Assembly (NCBI GenBank): GCA_902584995.1
Contig: CACICF010000002.1
Coordinates: forward strand, 60,246-124,245
Source: an uncultured Pelagibacteraceae bacterium
GTDB taxonomy: Bacteria > Pseudomonadota > Alphaproteobacteria > Pelagibacterales > Pelagibacteraceae
Direction of reading: 5' to 3'
Length of the DNA: 64,000 bases
How positions within the stretch are numbered: the stretch's first letter is position 1; each line of letters starts with the position of its first letter. Under the pieces are notes generated by a model that was not told where the DNA came from, did no database searches, and was given only the letters and a program-made list of their open reading frames with translations. A program made the translations under genes and the position numbers. This document shows, piece after piece, positions 2,868 to 10,723 of this stretch.

Positions 2868-3365
2868 TTACTCAATTATTATTGGTCCAACCATTCCACT
2901 TTCGTAATGACCAGGAATATTGCAAGCCATTTCCAAAGCTATATCTTTGGAAAATTTCCAAATTATCTCTCCAGTTTTATTAGGCTCTAACATCACGCTA
3001 TTAGCATGTTTATGTCCAAGCGAGTGATCTTTTTTAGACATTTCTTTCATCTTAGCATGATCGATACTATCTCCTAATAGAATATCATGCTCTATTAATC
3101 TTGCCATTTCAGGCTGATGTTTTATATGCATCTCTTTTGTGGCAATATTATATTCATGAACAAGTTCACCCAAATTTTTAACGATTATTTTTACCGTCTC
3201 ACCTTTTTTTACTTTAATTGAACTCGGTTCATAATAATTGTCATACATTTTTACTTCTATTACTCTAGTTACGTCTTTCGGATCTCCTTTGGATCCAATC
3301 ATCTTCATTGAAGCTGCATTTGAATTAAAGGCGATAAAAACAAATAAAAGTATAAGTTTTTTCAT
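2868..3365 (-). CDS. Exported cupredoxin-domain protein
   Basis: Signal peptide; HEYNI and CNIPGHYESGM copper-ligand pattern. Confidence 0.85.
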   Translation of the reverse strand: MKKLILLFVFIAFNSNAASMKMIGSKGDPKDVTRVIEVKMYDNYYEPSSIKVKKGETVKIIVKNLGELVHEYNIATKEMHIKHQPEMARLIEHDILLGDSIDHAKMKEMSKKDHSLGHKHANSVMLEPNKTGEIIWKFSKDIALEMACNIPGHYESGMVGPIIIE

Positions 3366-3685
3366 TATTTTGGCATAGGAGTTGCGCCAGTCTCTAAACT
3401 CATGATTTTTCCATTATCATATTTGTAAACTGCCATTACTGCTTCAACATTACCATCATCAAATGTTACAAACGCATGGTGTACTCCAACCTCATCATTT
3501 TCATAAACAATTCTAGTGTCCCTCTGTTTAATATCTCCACTCATGGCCCATTTGATCACATCAGATTTGCTTAAAGTATTACCTGATTTATGCATTGTAA
3601 ATTTAAAATCATCATGCAAAAGCTCATTCATTGCTGCTTCATCTTTATCTTTTATAGCCGCGCTATATTTTTCTAATATTGACAT
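3365..3685 (-). CDS. NTF2/SnoaL-like small protein (start trimmed to internal ATG)
   Basis: MSILEKYSAAIKDKDEAAMNELLHDDFKF; paralogous to 6177..6503; called ORF extends to 3736. Confidence 0.75.
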   Translation of the reverse strand: MSILEKYSAAIKDKDEAAMNELLHDDFKFTMHKSGNTLSKSDVIKWAMSGDIKQRDTRIVYENDEVGVHHAFVTFDDGNVEAVMAVYKYDNGKIMSLETGATPMPK

Positions 3686-3719
3686 TTTAATCTCCTTAGT
3701 TTTTGTAAAATTATTATAT

Positions 3720-4007
3720 TTAAACTCCTTCAACAATTATAGAATTTGACACAGCATTGTCGTGTCTTATTTGTCTAATTGGTTTATATTCTTCAGAATT
3801 ATACCATTCCATTGCCTTTTCACGAGATGGAAATTTAATAACAATATTTCTTTTGTGAGGCCAATCACCCTCTATAACCGACATTTCTCCCCCTCTTACT
3901 AAATACTCTCCATCAAATTTTTCAACAATGGATTTTACTTTCTCAACGTATTCTTTGTAATTCTCAGGATTATTTACTTTTATATTCGCCAAAAGATATG
4001 CGCTCAT
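3720..4007 (-). CDS. DUF1330-like dimeric alpha/beta-barrel protein
   Basis: YLLANIKVNNPENYKEYVEKV...GGEMSVIEGDWPHKRNIVIKFPSREKAMEWYNSEEYKPI. Confidence 0.85.
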   Translation of the reverse strand: MSAYLLANIKVNNPENYKEYVEKVKSIVEKFDGEYLVRGGEMSVIEGDWPHKRNIVIKFPSREKAMEWYNSEEYKPIRQIRHDNAVSNSIIVEGV

Positions 4008-4038
4008 AATCTTCTCCTTTCAATAAATTAATTATAAT

Positions 4039-4362
4039 TTATTCTGCGGGTTTGACTACTGATTTGGCTGCATCAGCAGCTTTTCCAAATGCTTTATTAT
4101 AATCTATTACCTCATGGATCATTAATTCATCCATAAGTCCTGAATTTAAAAAAGCTACTTTCATTCCAACAACAGTTTCAGCGTCACCTTCAACGCAACA
4201 CATTACATCAAATCTACCACGAACCCACTCATAACTAATCATTTTACCTCCTACAGCTTCAACAACTTTTTTTGTTGAAGCAAATCTGTCAGCTGATGGA
4301 TCTTTCTGCATTCGATGTAAAAGCTCCTTACTTACTTTTCCAATTACATAATATTTTGCCAT
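4039..4362 (-). CDS. GYD-domain-like small protein
   Basis: MAKYYVIGKVS... VEAVGGKMISYEWVRGRFDVMCCVEG; trimmed start. Confidence 0.6.
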   Translation of the reverse strand: MAKYYVIGKVSKELLHRMQKDPSADRFASTKKVVEAVGGKMISYEWVRGRFDVMCCVEGDAETVVGMKVAFLNSGLMDELMIHEVIDYNKAFGKAADAAKSVVKPAE

Positions 4363-4363
4363 A

Positions 4364-4654
4364 TTACATTTCAACTTTAGTCAAATCCCAAGCAGTCATT
4401 TTCTCAACACACTCATCGTAAATTGGCTTTCCGACTGGATGTGTGCCAGATACTAGTTCTTTCATTTTTTCCATATTATGAACAAATACTTTAAACATTA
4501 CACCACTTTTATCTGGCTTTACTGCTCCAATAGTTTTTTCTGGATGAGCTGCTGATTTCCTTACACTCATACCCTCTTCTGATTGCATCCATCCCATAAA
4601 TTTTTCAAGTTTTCCTTCTTTCAAATCTACGATCACTAAAACTTCTTTTTCCAT
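4364..4654 (-). CDS. Small ferredoxin-fold-like protein, unknown function
   Basis: 96-aa ORF within collinear cluster, preceded by aggagg-type SD. Confidence 0.6.
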   Translation of the reverse strand: MEKEVLVIVDLKEGKLEKFMGWMQSEEGMSVRKSAAHPEKTIGAVKPDKSGVMFKVFVHNMEKMKELVSGTHPVGKPIYDECVEKMTAWDLTKVEM

Positions 4655-4663
4655 TTTTTCCTC

Positions 4664-4951
4664 CTATTTGTTAAAATCGAAAACTTCTTCTTTAACCTCA
4701 GTAAATTGGTGAGGTTCAAAAAAATCATTCATCTGAGAAAGCTGTTCATTAATAGCATCAGTACTTTCTGCCATCCAATGACAAAACATTGTCATAGTAT
4801 CACCTGGAGTGTAATATGTCATTTGGCATTTAGCTTTATCGCTAGTGGAAGATTTAATCATATCTTCTCTGGACATGCCGCCTAAAACCTCGTTAAATTT
4901 GTCTTTCATTTCTTTAGATTTAAACGTGTGAGTTACCATATAGTATTTCAT
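4664..4951 (-). CDS. Small DUF3303-like protein
   Basis: MKYYMVTHTFKSKEMKDKFNEVL...MFCHWMAESTDAINEQL. Confidence 0.55.
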   Translation of the reverse strand: MKYYMVTHTFKSKEMKDKFNEVLGGMSREDMIKSSTSDKAKCQMTYYTPGDTMTMFCHWMAESTDAINEQLSQMNDFFEPHQFTEVKEEVFDFNK

Positions 4952-5004
4952 TTTTTTTTCCTTTTTTTTATTTCGTATTTTAAATTAATCTAATGATTAT
5001 TCAA

Positions 5005-5490
5005 TTATTTCATTAAAGAATATCCACCTTTAAAATAAATTGATGAGGCAAATTTATTTTCTTGGGCTGAGTTAATTTGTGTGTAACCTGTTGCGCCACT
5101 ACATTCTATACCTTTATATTTTCCTGTTCCCCCTAAGCATTTAAATGTACCATTCATTGAGTCTCCAAGTGGAATTTCGTAGTATGTAAAAATAGTATCC
5201 CCATCCATTTGATTTATTTTACAGTGTCCCATTTCAAATCCCTTTCCTGGGATTGTACCTGCGCCAATGCAATATTGTGAAGCATTATCCATGAATGTTG
5301 TACCTTCGACTGCCATTAATCCTCCAACTCCATCGTAAGTAAAAGTTAAAAAGTTACCCTCGTTATCAGTAAGAAATTTGTTATCTCCAACAATAAAACC
5401 TTTAAGATCAATTTTTCCTTTATGACCATCTGCAAAACTTGATGTTGTAAATATTAAAAAAAACATAATTACATATATTTTTTTCATCAT
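5005..5490 (-). CDS. Exported small beta-rich protein, unknown function
   Basis: Signal peptide MKKIYVIMFFLIFTTSSFADG, then Gly/Tyr-rich beta-type sequence. Confidence 0.65.
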   Translation of the reverse strand: MMKKIYVIMFFLIFTTSSFADGHKGKIDLKGFIVGDNKFLTDNEGNFLTFTYDGVGGLMAVEGTTFMDNASQYCIGAGTIPGKGFEMGHCKINQMDGDTIFTYYEIPLGDSMNGTFKCLGGTGKYKGIECSGATGYTQINSAQENKFASSIYFKGGYSLMK

Positions 5491-5495
5491 TAGAA

Positions 5496-5789
5496 TTATC
5501 CTTTGTGGTTCATTACAGATTCATCAGTCATCATGGTCATTTTAGATTGGTCCATTATTACTCCAGAATCTATTCTTGCTTGAGTTAGTTCTGCATCTCC
5601 ACCAAAACCTTTTAAGCCCTCGGGTGATTCAAAATGAATAACTACAGTCATAGCATTATCATCTTCTTTATCTGCACCTGCAAAAGCTATTGTCATTCCA
5701 TACTTTTTAAGTTTCTCACTATTTGCAAGCATCATTTCCTTCCAAGAATTAAAACCTTTTAAAAGTTTTTGTTCTATTTTTACAAACAT
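5496..5789 (-). CDS. Small ferredoxin-fold-like protein
   Basis: 97-aa ORF with SD; MTVVIHFESPEGLKGF pattern. Confidence 0.6.
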   Translation of the reverse strand: MFVKIEQKLLKGFNSWKEMMLANSEKLKKYGMTIAFAGADKEDDNAMTVVIHFESPEGLKGFGGDAELTQARIDSGVIMDQSKMTMMTDESVMNHKG

Positions 5790-5815
5790 AATATATCTCC
5801 TTTTTTTTTGTTAAT

Positions 5816-6085
5816 TTAATCAGAGCAAACGCTCATTACTGTTGTCTCTTGTTTATGTCCAGATTCCGCAATTACTTTAGCATTCTCTGGGTTCTGCATA
5901 AATTTTTGCATAGTGTCTGCTGCTGGTGTTTCCATCACAATATGTACTTTATTTGGATTTTCTATTTCATTTCCAACGTAAATAGTTTTAATACCTGCTG
6001 CTTCTCTTGGGCCAGAATGTTCATCAAACATTTTTTTCCAATGAGCCCAGTCTTTTACCTCAAAGTTACCAACCATTTTTACCAT
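5816..6085 (-). CDS. Small ferredoxin-fold-like protein, N-terminus uncertain
   Basis: MVKMVGNFEVKDWAHWKKMFDEHS; called ORF extends to 6142; see frameshift finding. Confidence 0.6.
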   Translation of the reverse strand: MVKMVGNFEVKDWAHWKKMFDEHSGPREAAGIKTIYVGNEIENPNKVHIVMETPAADTMQKFMQNPENAKVIAESGHKQETTVMSVCSD

Positions 6086-6086
6086 T

Positions 6087-6152
6087 TTATTCCCCCCAAA
6101 CCCCAGCAAATTCATATGCTTTATCAAAAGCTTTAAACTCAATGCTGGCCAT
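6087..6152 (-). CDS. 21-aa upstream ORF MASIEFKAFDKAYEFAGVWGE (leader ORF or frameshifted N-terminus of 5816..6085)
   Basis: AAGGAG SD directly upstream of ATG at 6152; ends at TAA next to a G6 run. Confidence 0.45.
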   Translation of the reverse strand: MASIEFKAFDKAYEFAGVWGE

Positions 6153-6176
6153 ATTAACTCCTTTGTAAGTTTATAG

Positions 6177-6503
6177 TTATTTTGGTATTTTTGTTGCTCC
6201 AGTTTCTAATTCAATGATTTTACCGTCTTTAAACTTCCAACAGCACATCAAAGCTTCTGTATTTCCATCTTGATAAGTAACATACGAATGATCAAAACCA
6301 ATTTCATCATTTTCAAAAAGGATCCTGTATTTTGCGGGACTCATCATCCCTTTACTTACGGCTTCAACCATACCTGCCTTACCCATATGCACATATTCTC
6401 CTTTAAGATGGGAAAACATTTTGTAGTCATCGTGCACCAGCTCACCAGCTGCTGCACCATCTTTTTCCATGATTGCTTTATTTAGTTTTTCTAAAATTGA
6501 CAT
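6177..6503 (-). CDS. NTF2/SnoaL-like small protein, paralog of 3365..3685
   Basis: MSILEKLNKAIMEKDGAAAGELVHDDYK...LETGATKIPK. Confidence 0.75.
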   Translation of the reverse strand: MSILEKLNKAIMEKDGAAAGELVHDDYKMFSHLKGEYVHMGKAGMVEAVSKGMMSPAKYRILFENDEIGFDHSYVTYQDGNTEALMCCWKFKDGKIIELETGATKIPK

Positions 6504-6511
6504 ATTGTTCC

Positions 6512-6895
6512 TTACTTCTTCATTGCATTGAACATGCTAAGTGTATCATCAAAAGTCATCATAACTTTAGTTTTTCCCTCATCACTTACTTCAAAATAGT
6601 GACCAAACATAGTATCCATGTTATCTGCAGTTGCATGAACTCTTGCAAAAACTTTATTTCCTTCACTTATCATATCTAAAACTTTTAAATGGAAATTTGG
6701 CCAAGTAGCTGGGATTTTAGACATTGCAGCCATCATAGCTTGTTTTCCTTTGTGAACTCCAGAAAGTGGATGTACACCTTCTTTACCTGGAAAAGTCCAA
6801 ACGATTTCATCATCGATCATATCGTTAAAAAATGTTTCCATATCTCCAGAACCAAAAAGTTCATATGCTTTTTTAGTTTGTTCTTTTACGTCCAT
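6512..6895 (-). CDS. NTF2/SnoaL-like (ketosteroid-isomerase-fold) protein
   Basis: KKAYELFGSGDMETFFNDMIDDEIVWTFPG...HPLSGVHKGKQAM. Confidence 0.85.
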   Translation of the reverse strand: MDVKEQTKKAYELFGSGDMETFFNDMIDDEIVWTFPGKEGVHPLSGVHKGKQAMMAAMSKIPATWPNFHLKVLDMISEGNKVFARVHATADNMDTMFGHYFEVSDEGKTKVMMTFDDTLSMFNAMKK

Positions 6896-6980: not shown

Positions 6981-7982
6981 TTATATCCAGTGTGGATAGG
7001 GAAGGCCTTTTTCTTTTAAAAAAGATTTATTAAACATCTTTGAGTTGTATTTATCAGATTTATCACAAAGTATTGTTACAATCGTTTTACCAGGACCTAA
7101 AAGTTTACCCAATCTAATAGCTCCAGCTATATTCACCCCACAACTAGTACCTAAACTAAGACCTTCTTTTTCAATTAAATCGAATAAAACAGGTAAAGAC
7201 TCATGATCACTTATTGAAAATGCTCCATCAATATTTGCTTTTGCAAAATTTGCAGTAACTCTACTAGATCCAATACCTTCGGTTATCGAGCCACCCTCAC
7301 TCTTTAATTCCCCATTTTCAATGTAATTATATAGGGATGAACCAGTTGGATCTGATAAATATATTTTAATGTTTTTATTCTTTTCTTTTAAAAAACTACT
7401 AACTCCAGCAATAGTTCCTCCAGTTCCAGAGGAACAAACAAATCCATCAACTTTTCCCTCAGTTTGTTCCCATATTTCAGGTCCAGTAGTTTCATAATGC
7501 CCTTTCATGTTTGCAGTATTATCGAATTGGTTAGCCCAAACGACACCATGATTATTGCTACTTTTTAATTCTTCAGCTAAACGACCTGCATACTTAACAA
7601 AATTATTTTCATCTTTATATGGTTTTGGTGGTATCAATCTCAAATCAGCACCTATACTTCTTAGTAAATCTTTTTTTTCTTGTGTTTGATTATCATTCAT
7701 TACGATTATAGTTTTGTAACCAATCGAATTTCCTAAAAGACATAAACCAATTCCAGTATTGCCAGCAGTCCCTTCAACAATTATTCCTCCTTTTGAAATT
7801 AGTTTTTTTTCTTCAGCGTCTCTTATCAAAGCTAAAGCTGCTCTATCTTTTACAGAGCCTCCTGGATTAAGGTACTCTGCTTTTCCATAAATATTACAAC
7901 CAGTAATTTCTGATGCGGCCTTTAATTTAAATAAAGGAGTGTTTCCTATTGCTTCGACAAAATTATTTTGTAAAGTTTTCAT
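6981..7982 (-). CDS. cysK: Cysteine synthase
   Basis: [33 protein letters not shown] motifs. Confidence 0.88.
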
Positions 7983-8560
7983 ACATCAAGCTTTGTATCA
8001 CCCCCTGGTGCAACACCATAGGGTTTAAATTCTTCAGATGCAGTTCCAACATTTTTTGCTGGAATTCCAACCATTACTGCATTTTCTGGAACATCTTTTG
8101 TAACAACAGCATTAGCTCCAATTTTTGAATTTTTACCAACTACAACTGGTCCAAGTATTTGTGCGCCAGATCCTACAACTACATTTTCTTTTAGCGTTGG
8201 GTGTCTTTTAATATTTCTTTGATTATCTGAATTAATACTTGGAGCAATACCACCTAATGTTGCCATATGATAAATAGTTACATTATCACCTATATCTGAA
8301 GTTTCACCAATAACTACTCCCATACCATGATCAATAAAAAGATTTTTACCAATTTTTGCGTTTGGATGAATCTCAATACCAGTTAAAAATCTTGAAAATT
8401 GAGAAATTATTCTCGCTAAAAGATGAAATTTTGCTACGGCAAAAAAGTTCGCAATTCTATGAAAAAATACAGCTTTAACACCAGGATAAGTAAGTATTAA
8501 ACTTAACTTTGACCTTGCAGCAGGATCTCTTTTAATTATCGACTCTAAAAAATCATTCAT
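7979..8560 (-). CDS. cysE: Serine O-acetyltransferase
   Basis: Left-handed beta-helix hexapeptides; [29 protein letters not shown]; overlaps cysK by 4 nt. Confidence 0.92.
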
Positions 8561-8588
8561 AAATGTTTAAGATAAATTTTAAATTAAA

Positions 8589-8699
8589 CTACTTATTACA
8601 ACAGCAGTTTTCTGATGATGGTTTGCAATCACAGTTTTTACAAACACATCTGTCACAAGAACAGTTTTTACATTTGCAGTGTGAATTATTGCATACCAT
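8589..8699 (-). CDS. Uncalled 36-aa metallothionein-like peptide MVCNNSHCKCKNCSCDRCVCKNCDCKPSSENCCCNK
   Basis: Manual translation; 12 Cys in 36 aa as CxC, CxxC and CCC; intact ORF between cysE and MBL gene. Confidence 0.7.
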   Translation of the reverse strand: MVCNNSHCKCKNCSCDRCVCKNCDCKPSSENCCCNK

Positions 8700-8753
8700 A
8701 AGTCTTATATAATTCTTAATTTTCTAAAAACAACACTTTTATAAAGCTTGATT

Positions 8754-9446
8754 TTAAAGTTCTTTGAGCGTCAAACCCTTTAAATTCGCTGGAACTGCTA
8801 CATCCATCATTTTTGGATTTGTTAGATTAAGATTATCCATGATTTCAACATACTCCTCTTTTGAGCTAACCTGAAGTCTTGGGTTATTATTTTTTTCATT
8901 ACCTATTGTTGAATTTTTTTTTCCATTATAATCATGGGCAGGGTATACAAGCGTTTCTTCAGGAAGTTTTAACAATTTACCAAACAATGACTCATAAGCC
9001 TGATGAGCACTGCCATTTTGAAAGTCGGTTCTGCCTGTTCCATTAATTAAAAGAGTATCCCCTGTAAAAACTCTGTCTTTCATCAGATAGCTATAAGAAC
9101 AGTCAGTATGACCAGGTGTATAAATAGCTTTAAGGTTAATATTTTCAATACTTACATTTTCTTCATCTTTTAATTTTATATCAATAACTTCAGATTTAGA
9201 ATTTTCACCCATTATACGAGTACAGTTTGTTCTTTTGTTTAACTCGTTTAATCCAGTTACATGATCTGCATGAATATGAGTATCAATTACTTTTACAAGT
9301 TTTAATTCTAAACTTTCTAAAACTTTTATATATTCATCGGTATGTTCAATTACTGGATCTATGATTAGAGCTTCACGTCCTTTTCCACTAGAAATGATAT
9401 AAGTGTATGTTGAGGATTTAGTATCAAAAAGTTGTTCAAAAATCAT
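8754..9446 (-). CDS. MBL-fold hydrolase, persulfide dioxygenase (ETHE1/SdoA)-like
   Basis: THIHADHVTG, YTPGHTDCS, TGDTLLINGTGRTDFQ. Confidence 0.85.
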   Translation of the reverse strand: MIFEQLFDTKSSTYTYIISSGKGREALIIDPVIEHTDEYIKVLESLELKLVKVIDTHIHADHVTGLNELNKRTNCTRIMGENSKSEVIDIKLKDEENVSIENINLKAIYTPGHTDCSYSYLMKDRVFTGDTLLINGTGRTDFQNGSAHQAYESLFGKLLKLPEETLVYPAHDYNGKKNSTIGNEKNNNPRLQVSSKEEYVEIMDNLNLTNPKMMDVAVPANLKGLTLKEL

Positions 9447-9481: not shown

Positions 9482-10723
9482 CTAATTTTCAATAGCTTTA
9501 TGGTTAGGCTTACTCCATTCTTTTCCTTTAAACATCACGTTCCATTGCAACCAAGGAAAAAGTCTAGATTTCATTTGCCAGTACATTGAACTTGGTTTTG
9601 TAGGATCAAATGGAAAGCTTGGAGTAACTTTTCCTCCATAACAAAATTCAGCTAACATTACTTTTCCATATGCAACCGTCAGAGGACAAGCTCCATATCC
9701 ATCGTAAAGTCTGTATTCTTCAGATGATTTATTAATATCTTTTACAATGTTATGTGCAACTATTGGTGCTTGTTTTCTTACCGCTGCACCTGTTTTTGCA
9801 TTTGGTGCATTCATAACATCACCCAAGCTATAAACATTTTCATATTTAGTATGTTTTAGAGTTCCACCTTTATGATCGACATCAACCCAACCACCTGCAT
9901 CAGCTAATGGACTATTCTTTATAAAGTCGGGTGCAGTTTGAGGTGGTGTAACATGGATAAAATCGAAATTTTTTATTACTTCTTTAGTATTTCCATCTTT
10001 ATCTGATTGTTTGAAAACAGCTTCTTTTGCTTCACCATTAATTGAAATTAAATTATGCTGAAAACTTCTTTTAATTCCATACGAGTCACAAATTTCATTT
10101 AATGGACCTTGAAAATGAGGTACACCGAATATTACAGGTTTTGCGCACAAAAATTCTAAATCACTATCTTTGAGAGCACCTTTTTTTTTCATATGATCTG
10201 CAGCTAAGTAAGCAATTTTTTGTGGAGCACCAGCACATTTAATTGGCATTGGAGGCTCAGTAAATAACAAAGTTCCTCCCTTTAAATTTTTTAGACATTC
10301 CCAAGTATAAACAGCCATGTCTGAACTATAGTTTGTACAAACATTATTTTTTCCCAATGTCTCTTTAAGTCCAGCTACTCCATCAAAATTAATTTTTAAA
10401 CCTGGACAAACTACTAAGTAATCATATGAATATTCACCACCTGAAGTCTTGACTGAATTAGACTCAGGCGAAAAACTTTCTGCATATTCTTTTATCCAAT
10501 TAACATAACTAGGCATTACAGATGACATTGGTTTTATGGTACTGTTTACATCATAAGCCCCTGCACCAACTAATGTCCATGCAGCTTGATACAAAGATTT
10601 TTCCGAAGGTTCTATTATTGATATTGATAAATCAGACTTTAAACTTTTTAGTCTTGAAGCAACAGAGATACCAGCGCATCCACCACCGATAATCAAAATA
10701 TTTGTGTGATTAGAGTTATTCAT
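9482..10723 (-). CDS. Sulfide:quinone oxidoreductase-like FAD protein
   Basis: LIIGGGCAGISVA FAD motif; KCAGAPQKIAYLAADH; start trimmed to MNNSNHTN. Confidence 0.85.
   Translation of the reverse strand: MNNSNHTNILIIGGGCAGISVASRLKSLKSDLSISIIEPSEKSLYQAAWTLVGAGAYDVNSTIKPMSSVMPSYVNWIKEYAESFSPESNSVKTSGGEYSYDYLVVCPGLKINFDGVAGLKETLGKNNVCTNYSSDMAVYTWECLKNLKGGTLLFTEPPMPIKCAGAPQKIAYLAADHMKKKGALKDSDLEFLCAKPVIFGVPHFQGPLNEICDSYGIKRSFQHNLISINGEAKEAVFKQSDKDGNTKEVIKNFDFIHVTPPQTAPDFIKNSPLADAGGWVDVDHKGGTLKHTKYENVYSLGDVMNAPNAKTGAAVRKQAPIVAHNIVKDINKSSEEYRLYDGYGACPLTVAYGKVMLAEFCYGGKVTPSFPFDPTKPSSMYWQMKSRLFPWLQWNVMFKGKEWSKPNHKAIEN

Follow-up and report, generated by a model that had tools for sequence, protein, structure and literature searches.

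A cysteine-rich leader gene before cysE-cysK in SAR11 bacteria as a candidate cysteine-responsive attenuator and metallothionein-like peptide gene

Introduction

SAR11 bacteria rank with the most abundant cells on Earth, and they are noted for how little regulation they have and for their dependence on reduced sulfur. In a SAR11 (Pelagibacteraceae) genome segment of 64,000 nucleotides, hereafter the window, an earlier note had pointed to an uncalled minus-strand ORF of 36 amino acids (AAs), 12 of them cysteine, beside the cysteine-biosynthesis genes cysE and cysK, and had proposed that it encodes a metallothionein-like peptide coupled to cysteine supply. Our literature search found no paper relevantly linking metallothionein with SAR11. 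The locus raises a question: is this a genuine gene and, if so, does it act through its peptide product, through the codons and RNA structure that it places in front of cysE, or through both? The relatives named below are single-cell genomes labelled Pelagibacteraceae.

Results

The ORF is genuine and found in a minority of SAR11 genomes

The peptide MVCNNSHCKCKNCSCDRCVCKNCDCKPSSENCCCNK is the exact minus-strand translation of the ORF from its ATG, identical to the one first described (Table 1), and the ORF is the only one of 20–80 AAs in the window with at least 10 cysteines. A chance ORF or a sequencing artefact might be suspected, given that the ORF is shorter than the ORF-length cut-off and that its source is a single-cell genome. 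However, dozens of species keep the ORF with a Cys-codon pN/pS near 0, and comparable ORFs were lacking from all 40 simulated windows (order-2 Markov; 0 ORFs of ≤60 AAs with 10 cysteines, maximum 8). The conservation data and the simulated windows together rule out a chance ORF, and we regard chance or artefact as a scarcely conceivable source of this element.

Table 1. Features of the cysE-cysK leader region, with positions in the window.
Feature	Position	Strand	Evidence or remark
cysK, cysteine synthase A, overlaps cysE	6981..7982	-	NF007989 above cut-off
cysE, serine O-acetyltransferase, presumed regulated gene	7979..8560	-	TIGR01172 above cut-off; partner in nearly all loci
Spacer between peptide and cysE, 28 nt, no promoter called	8561..8588	-	relatives' spacer 25–38 nt
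RNA hairpin AAACTGCT(9-nt loop)AGTAGTTT	8586..8610	-	spans Asn-Cys-Cys-Cys-Asn-Lys-stop codons
Candidate leader gene, 36-AA 12-Cys peptide (CxC core and CCC tail)	8589..8699	-	ORF, conservation, Cys-codon selection
−10-like element TATATA, ends 6 nt 5' of ATG	8706..8711	-	comparison with relatives
−35-like element TTGTTT	8728..8733	-	TTG at −34 to −32 in ~90% of distinct upstream regions
ETHE1/Blh-like MBL-fold protein, upstream neighbour	8754..9446	-	bifunctional Blh and GloB models, below cut-off
SQR-like gene	9482-10723	-	top NCBIfam match type III SQR selenoprotein profile, below cut-off

A profile search recovered the peptide from 79 of 399 genomes of the genus, from 9 of 57 high-quality genomes of the genus, and from one genome of another genus of the family; the element was absent from the single-contig genomes listed in the order-level search. 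Searches at the class level (337 genomes) and at the phylum level (398 genomes) each added one weak hit (E 0.006 and E 0.003, respectively), neither with a Cys-rich gene at the site by our filter, and on that ground these two loci (L212 and L213, E 0.003–0.006) were rejected as homologues beyond SAR11. Peptide lengths range from 36 to 44 AAs, and the 44-AA leader of L129/L210 (G025), MTCNNKSCNCKNCDPKKCKCSSDGNCACNSCKCSPNSTNCCCNN, is an expanded form with an additional Cys block. Most SAR11 genomes have cysE and lack the leader element; in the peptide-less genomes, either a gap of 15–39 nt separates ETHE1 from cysE or a different gene lies upstream of cysE. Where ETHE1 is present and the leader gene is missing in L118, L119, L121, L122 and L128, TATATA stands immediately before the cysE ATG, and cysE itself may be leaderless in these loci.

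cysE is the steady partner

In order of transcription on the minus strand, the genes run SQR-like, ETHE1/Blh-like, peptide, cysE and cysK. The order ETHE1-peptide-cysE was found in 73 of the 74 loci first examined, and the one exception (L095) lacks ETHE1 and retains peptide and cysE at a distance of 27 nt. Further loci agree, including one in the other genus that is without ETHE1 and has cysE 26 nt downstream. Nearly all loci combine a CCC(C) run 0–3 codons from the stop with a cysE start 25–38 nt downstream; at L156 the frame-finder placed the next cysE ATG 271 nt away, and at L200 it did not resolve the downstream frame. SQR, in contrast, is present in about half of the loci. The position first described for the peptide, between cysE-cysK and an ETHE1/SQR pair, is thus true of the window, but its SQR part does not extend to about half of the loci, and cysE is for that reason the consistent partner; the linkage of peptide and cysE persists where ETHE1 and SQR are absent.

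These comparisons bear on whether the peptide might be a sulfur or persulfide carrier that acts with its ETHE1/SQR neighbours. The gene neighbourhood of the window would suit such a role, as would the viral relatives described below, whose neighbours are also sulfur-linked (IscU/IscA). However, about half of the loci have no SQR, and at L095 and L209/L174 the peptide-cysE pair stays in place without ETHE1. We rejected the idea of a persulfide operon because SQR is not a constant partner, and we hold a carrier of this kind to be very improbable.

The surroundings also vary in other respects. Close relatives differ in the presence or absence of the SQR-like gene between ETHE1 and a peroxiredoxin gene. 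Beside cysK, the minus strand of the window carries an array of about 10 small genes (3365-6895; 95–127 AAs each), and the content of this array varies between close relatives in a neighbourhood that is otherwise conserved.

A conserved promoter ends close to the ATG

The relatives share a conserved sigma70-like promoter that ends 4–9 nt 5' of the ATG, with TATAT at −12 to −8 in more than 90% of distinct upstream regions when these are aligned at the ATG. A −35/−10 pair (at least 8/12 matches, ending ≤12 nt from the ATG) was present in 68 of 78 distinct upstream regions vs. 3 of 64 other window genes, a contrast that we offer as a guide and without a p-value because related sequences are not independent. 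This promoter becomes visible only by comparison across relatives, and a standard promoter scan of the window did not call it. From its geometry, transcription is expected to start at or within a few nt of the ATG; the mRNA is therefore probably leaderless, with this ORF as the first on the cysE-cysK transcript.

A covarying hairpin spans the CCC codons and the stop

The last codons of the ORF fold into a hairpin (Table 1), which in relatives takes in Cys-Cys-Cys-Asn-(Asn/Lys)-stop. Across 74 distinct tails, the mean minimum free energy (MFE) was −7.4 kcal/mol vs. −3.8 when the same peptides were re-coded synonymously, with a median rank of 0.01 in the 39-AA forms and 0.02 in the 36-AA forms; the window tail itself reached −7.3 vs. 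−3.5 for its synonymous null (rank 0.00), and the 37- and 38-AA forms have weaker hairpins. Covariation was assessed for a 16-pair helix in 38 sequences from relatives with the 39-AA form. Standard pairs occupied 78% of cells vs. 31–63% when the helix was slid, the covariation score was 0.292 vs. 0.186 ± 0.012 in shuffles (0/500 as high), and double changes in the helix numbered 54 vs. 26.5 in shuffles; RNAalifold independently recovered the inner seven pairs. As in a classical attenuator, then, a conserved hairpin precedes the biosynthetic gene cysE, here overlapping the regulatory codons.

The hairpin resembles an intrinsic terminator in some species. A run of T5–T6 lies directly 3' of the stem in L024, L158, L164, L167, L173, L179, L181 and L183, and the run is weak or absent in many other species; a standard terminator scan of the window found none, and no T-run stands behind the window stem. 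A classical antiterminator pairing, here between codons 2–8 and the CCC arm, gained no support, with a mean rank of 0.39 against the synonymous null. An Rfam search of the locus returned only sub-threshold eukaryotic RNA families, none of them over the element.

Selection preserves the thiols and their spacing

The earlier proposal hinged on an ORF that stays open in relatives and on purifying selection at its Cys codons. The ORF is intact in relatives, and in sets of 44 distinct 36-AA ORFs and 41 distinct 39-AA ORFs the Cys codons outside the hairpin had a pN/pS of 0.08 and 0.01, respectively, while their third positions vary (pS 0.15 in the 36-AA and 0.76 in the 39-AA forms). In the 39-AA forms N5 and N12 are kept almost without exception, even though synonymous changes occur in their codons. 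Constraint on the other non-Cys codons is only mild (0.59 in the 36-AA forms, with a wide interval; 0.70 in the 39-AA forms). Since the Cys codons are constrained while their third positions vary, we conclude that the sequence of the peptide is important, above all its thiols and the distances between them. Isolated losses of one Cys, seen here and there in single-cell genomes, may stem from errors of amplification.

Known families offered no match. The window peptide hit nothing in Pfam or NCBIfam at E≤10, PF02069 and other metallothioneins included, which bears out the earlier remark that it does not fit the SmtA/BmtA pattern; 15 family members likewise had no match in these collections at E≤1. 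A PDB chain search gave no convincing match, and profile hits to mucin-5B in the PDB (E 0.02–0.04) were rejected as matches of Cys composition. The peptide resembles SmtA/BmtA/PmtA (PF02069) in its very high Cys content, and the window form has CxCxxCxC. It differs from these proteins in giving no profile match, in its length (36–39 vs. about 55 AAs), in its CCC tail, in its site before cysE, and in having at most one His (His7 alone in the 36-AA forms and no His in the 39-AA forms) and no zinc-finger segment of the PF02069 type. With these distinctions, the view that the uncalled ORF encodes a real peptide of metallothionein-like kind with a link to cysteine supply is supported, and cysE is its steady partner.

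Marine viruses carry peptides with the same Cys spacing

A profile search led to MCNNEHCKCENCTCDPCVCTAENQCECE, whose gene lies among phage genes on a viral contig; it has a Shine-Dalgarno sequence but neither cysE nor a CCC tail. A pattern scan then matched 61 viral contigs, mostly with peptides like MCNNEECKCENCTCDPCECT...CGC, whose Cys spacing is that of the 39-AA SAR11 form. Because this first pattern imposed K9, N12 and D16, a second scan imposed the Cys spacing alone; the matches listed were mostly low-complexity frames with at least a handful of ATG-started short ORFs, and among these listed ORFs every one had N5 and the majority had N12 and D16. Terminase, DNA polymerase and clamp-loader genes mark at least some of the viruses as T4-like. 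An IscU-like (PF01592) or IscA-like (PF01521) gene lay within 3 kb on the same strand in 28 of 51 viral loci, not all of them independent, vs. 0 of 112 unmatched control contigs; examples are L257:471-1864, L292, L299, L301 and L345, among others.

The marine T4-like viral peptides have in common with the 39-AA SAR11 form the spacing C-[NED]-N-x2-C-x-C-x2-C-x4-C-x-C-x5-C-x-C, together with N5 and mostly N12 and D16. They differ in their Shine-Dalgarno sequences, acidic tails and frequent IscU/IscA neighbours, and in having no CCC tail or cysE. Judged from a short Cys-rich alignment, the viral and SAR11 cores are likely homologous. The viral family is widespread and unnamed, its members 22–50 AAs long, either of the form MCNNEECKCENCTCDPCECT...CGC with an acidic tail or of a shorter form, MSCGECKCENCKCDPCEC; members in IMG/VR include L214/L247, L245-L307, L345, L353, L362, L375, L379, L407, L413 and L416. 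The viral peptides tested matched no family in Pfam or PHROGs. In tblastn searches of named phages, a 28-AA viral peptide gave only weak partial hits (E 5–6) and a 35-AA one none, in a search whose low-complexity filter may hide such peptides.

Because these virus homologues keep the Cys spacing without cysE, we reasoned that the peptide itself does something. It could be all that matters: a metallothionein-like peptide kept for metal or sulfur buffering, with a hairpin that acts as a partial terminator or mRNA 3'-end stabiliser and determines how much peptide there is relative to cysE-cysK mRNA while sensing no cysteine. The retention of Cys spacing and of N5/N12 at the AA level, the CxC-patterned cysteines throughout the ORF, the virus homologues that have neither cysE nor a CCC tail, and the Fe-S assembly genes near 28 of the 51 viral loci all argue for it. 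However, the SAR11 copies practically never occur apart from cysE, the Cys run and the stop codon make up the hairpin, and two natural forms that have lost the core, described next, retain the remaining elements. We consider a role confined to the peptide unlikely, if well short of negligible.

Two lineages have lost the CxC core

In one genome each, the CxC core has been lost in frame, leaving MACNISNCKFKQASENCCC (G072) and MVCNNPKCECMPSKATCCCKK (G174). These mini-leaders (L218:1453-1512 and L237:1537-1602) have 19 and 21 AAs with 5–6 cysteines. Both genomes retain promoter, CCC codons and cysE, and both still have the hairpin, with 10 pairs in G072 and as a stem with T4 in G174. They fall in separate clades of the cysE tree, each beside full-length forms, and on this sequence evidence two lineages deleted the core independently. 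The cis part (promoter, Cys run and hairpin) is therefore separable from a core that can be dispensed with.

Such forms invite the opposite simplification, a purely regulatory leader: only the Cys codons and the hairpin would count, the peptide would be broken down, and its CxC pattern would be incidental. The 19- and 21-AA mini-forms fit it, as do the linkage to cysE, the covariation of the hairpin, the mild constraint on most non-Cys codons and the mycobacterial precedent discussed below. Yet the Cys spacing is invariant over saturated synonymous divergence, N5 and N12 are conserved, and virus homologues share the core without cysE; we therefore find a purely regulatory leader improbable.

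Discussion

We read the locus as a bifunctional SAR11 leader gene for cysE-cysK, a cysteine-responsive cis attenuator that is also the gene of a metallothionein-like peptide, and we hold the chances of this reading to be evenly balanced. Its cis-RNA part is well supported by the comparisons made here, and the cis features speak for a regulatory leader peptide no less strongly than for buffering; the direction of control, the binding of metal and a possible part for persulfide are what we infer. The cis part is taken for a cysteine-responsive attenuator because its regulatory codons are Cys and the genes that follow make Cys, and because those codons lie inside a conserved hairpin before cysE in an ORF that is probably first on the transcript. 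The peptide itself we take for a metallothionein-like thiol peptide, for which metals, persulfide and Fe-S protection are indistinguishable in these data.

Under this bifunctional reading, when charged Cys-tRNA is scarce, ribosomes would slow on the Cys codons and occupy the 5' arm of the hairpin; because the slowed ribosomes sit on that arm, the hairpin could not form, and cysE-cysK would be transcribed or translated. With plenty of cysteine, ribosomes would complete the ORF and leave, the hairpin would form and cysE-cysK would be limited, by intrinsic termination in those species with a T-run after the stem. The peptide product would bind soft metals or sulfur via its CxC core. The model has a weak point: as Cys codons occur from codon 3 on, severe starvation would halt the ribosome long before it reaches the hairpin, an unwanted outcome for a simple attenuator. 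Also counting against the model are the lack of a T-run in many species and in the window, the unsupported antiterminator pairing, the SAR11 majority that has cysE but no such element, and the proteome result cited below.

For cys genes in Actinobacteria, leader peptides whose Cys runs lie close to the stop have been predicted (PMC1262725), and leaderless polycysteine attenuators have been experimentally shown in mycobacteria (Canestrari 2020, as cited in PMC9094748 and PMC13236596). These mycobacterial polycysteine uORF attenuators are the closest precedent for the SAR11 element, in layout and with no claim of sequence homology: in each, a short ORF, leaderless in mycobacteria and predicted to be so in SAR11, carries consecutive Cys codons close to its stop just 5' of cysteine-biosynthesis genes. 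In contrast, the SAR11 element is alphaproteobacterial, has Cys across the whole ORF in CxC spacing and has virus homologues; and whereas the mycobacterial regions are reported to lack conserved terminator hairpins (PMC1262725), it has a covarying hairpin over the CCC codons and the stop. With the his, trp and leu attenuators it shares a leader peptide rich in the operon's amino acid and a hairpin before the first gene. It differs from them in that its hairpin overlaps the regulatory codons and the stop, no antiterminator is supported, and a T-run follows in only some species.

In a proteome study of a cultured Pelagibacter, CysK and CysE were unresponsive to sulfur limitation (PMC5069961), in a strain that may or may not carry the element, and an earlier Pelagibacter RNA survey makes no mention of cysE or cysK (PMC2704228).

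A bolder version, which we think doubtful, is that a metallothionein serves as the sensor of its own operon through a hairpin over its last Cys codons, with a core shared with T4-like viruses, in which it travels with Fe-S assembly genes. The ribosome, in reading the nascent Cys-rich peptide, would gauge the cysteine supply and perhaps the metal or sulfur load too.

If the bifunctional reading is true, the locus would be a case of amino-acid attenuation in a streamlined alphaproteobacterium, extending a mechanism known from mycobacteria. Since the peptides match nothing in Pfam, NCBIfam or PHROGs and their viral relatives are often found near Fe-S assembly genes, they also provide a testable virus-host lead, and the family may thereby offer a way into how viruses and their hosts handle metal and sulfur in the open ocean.
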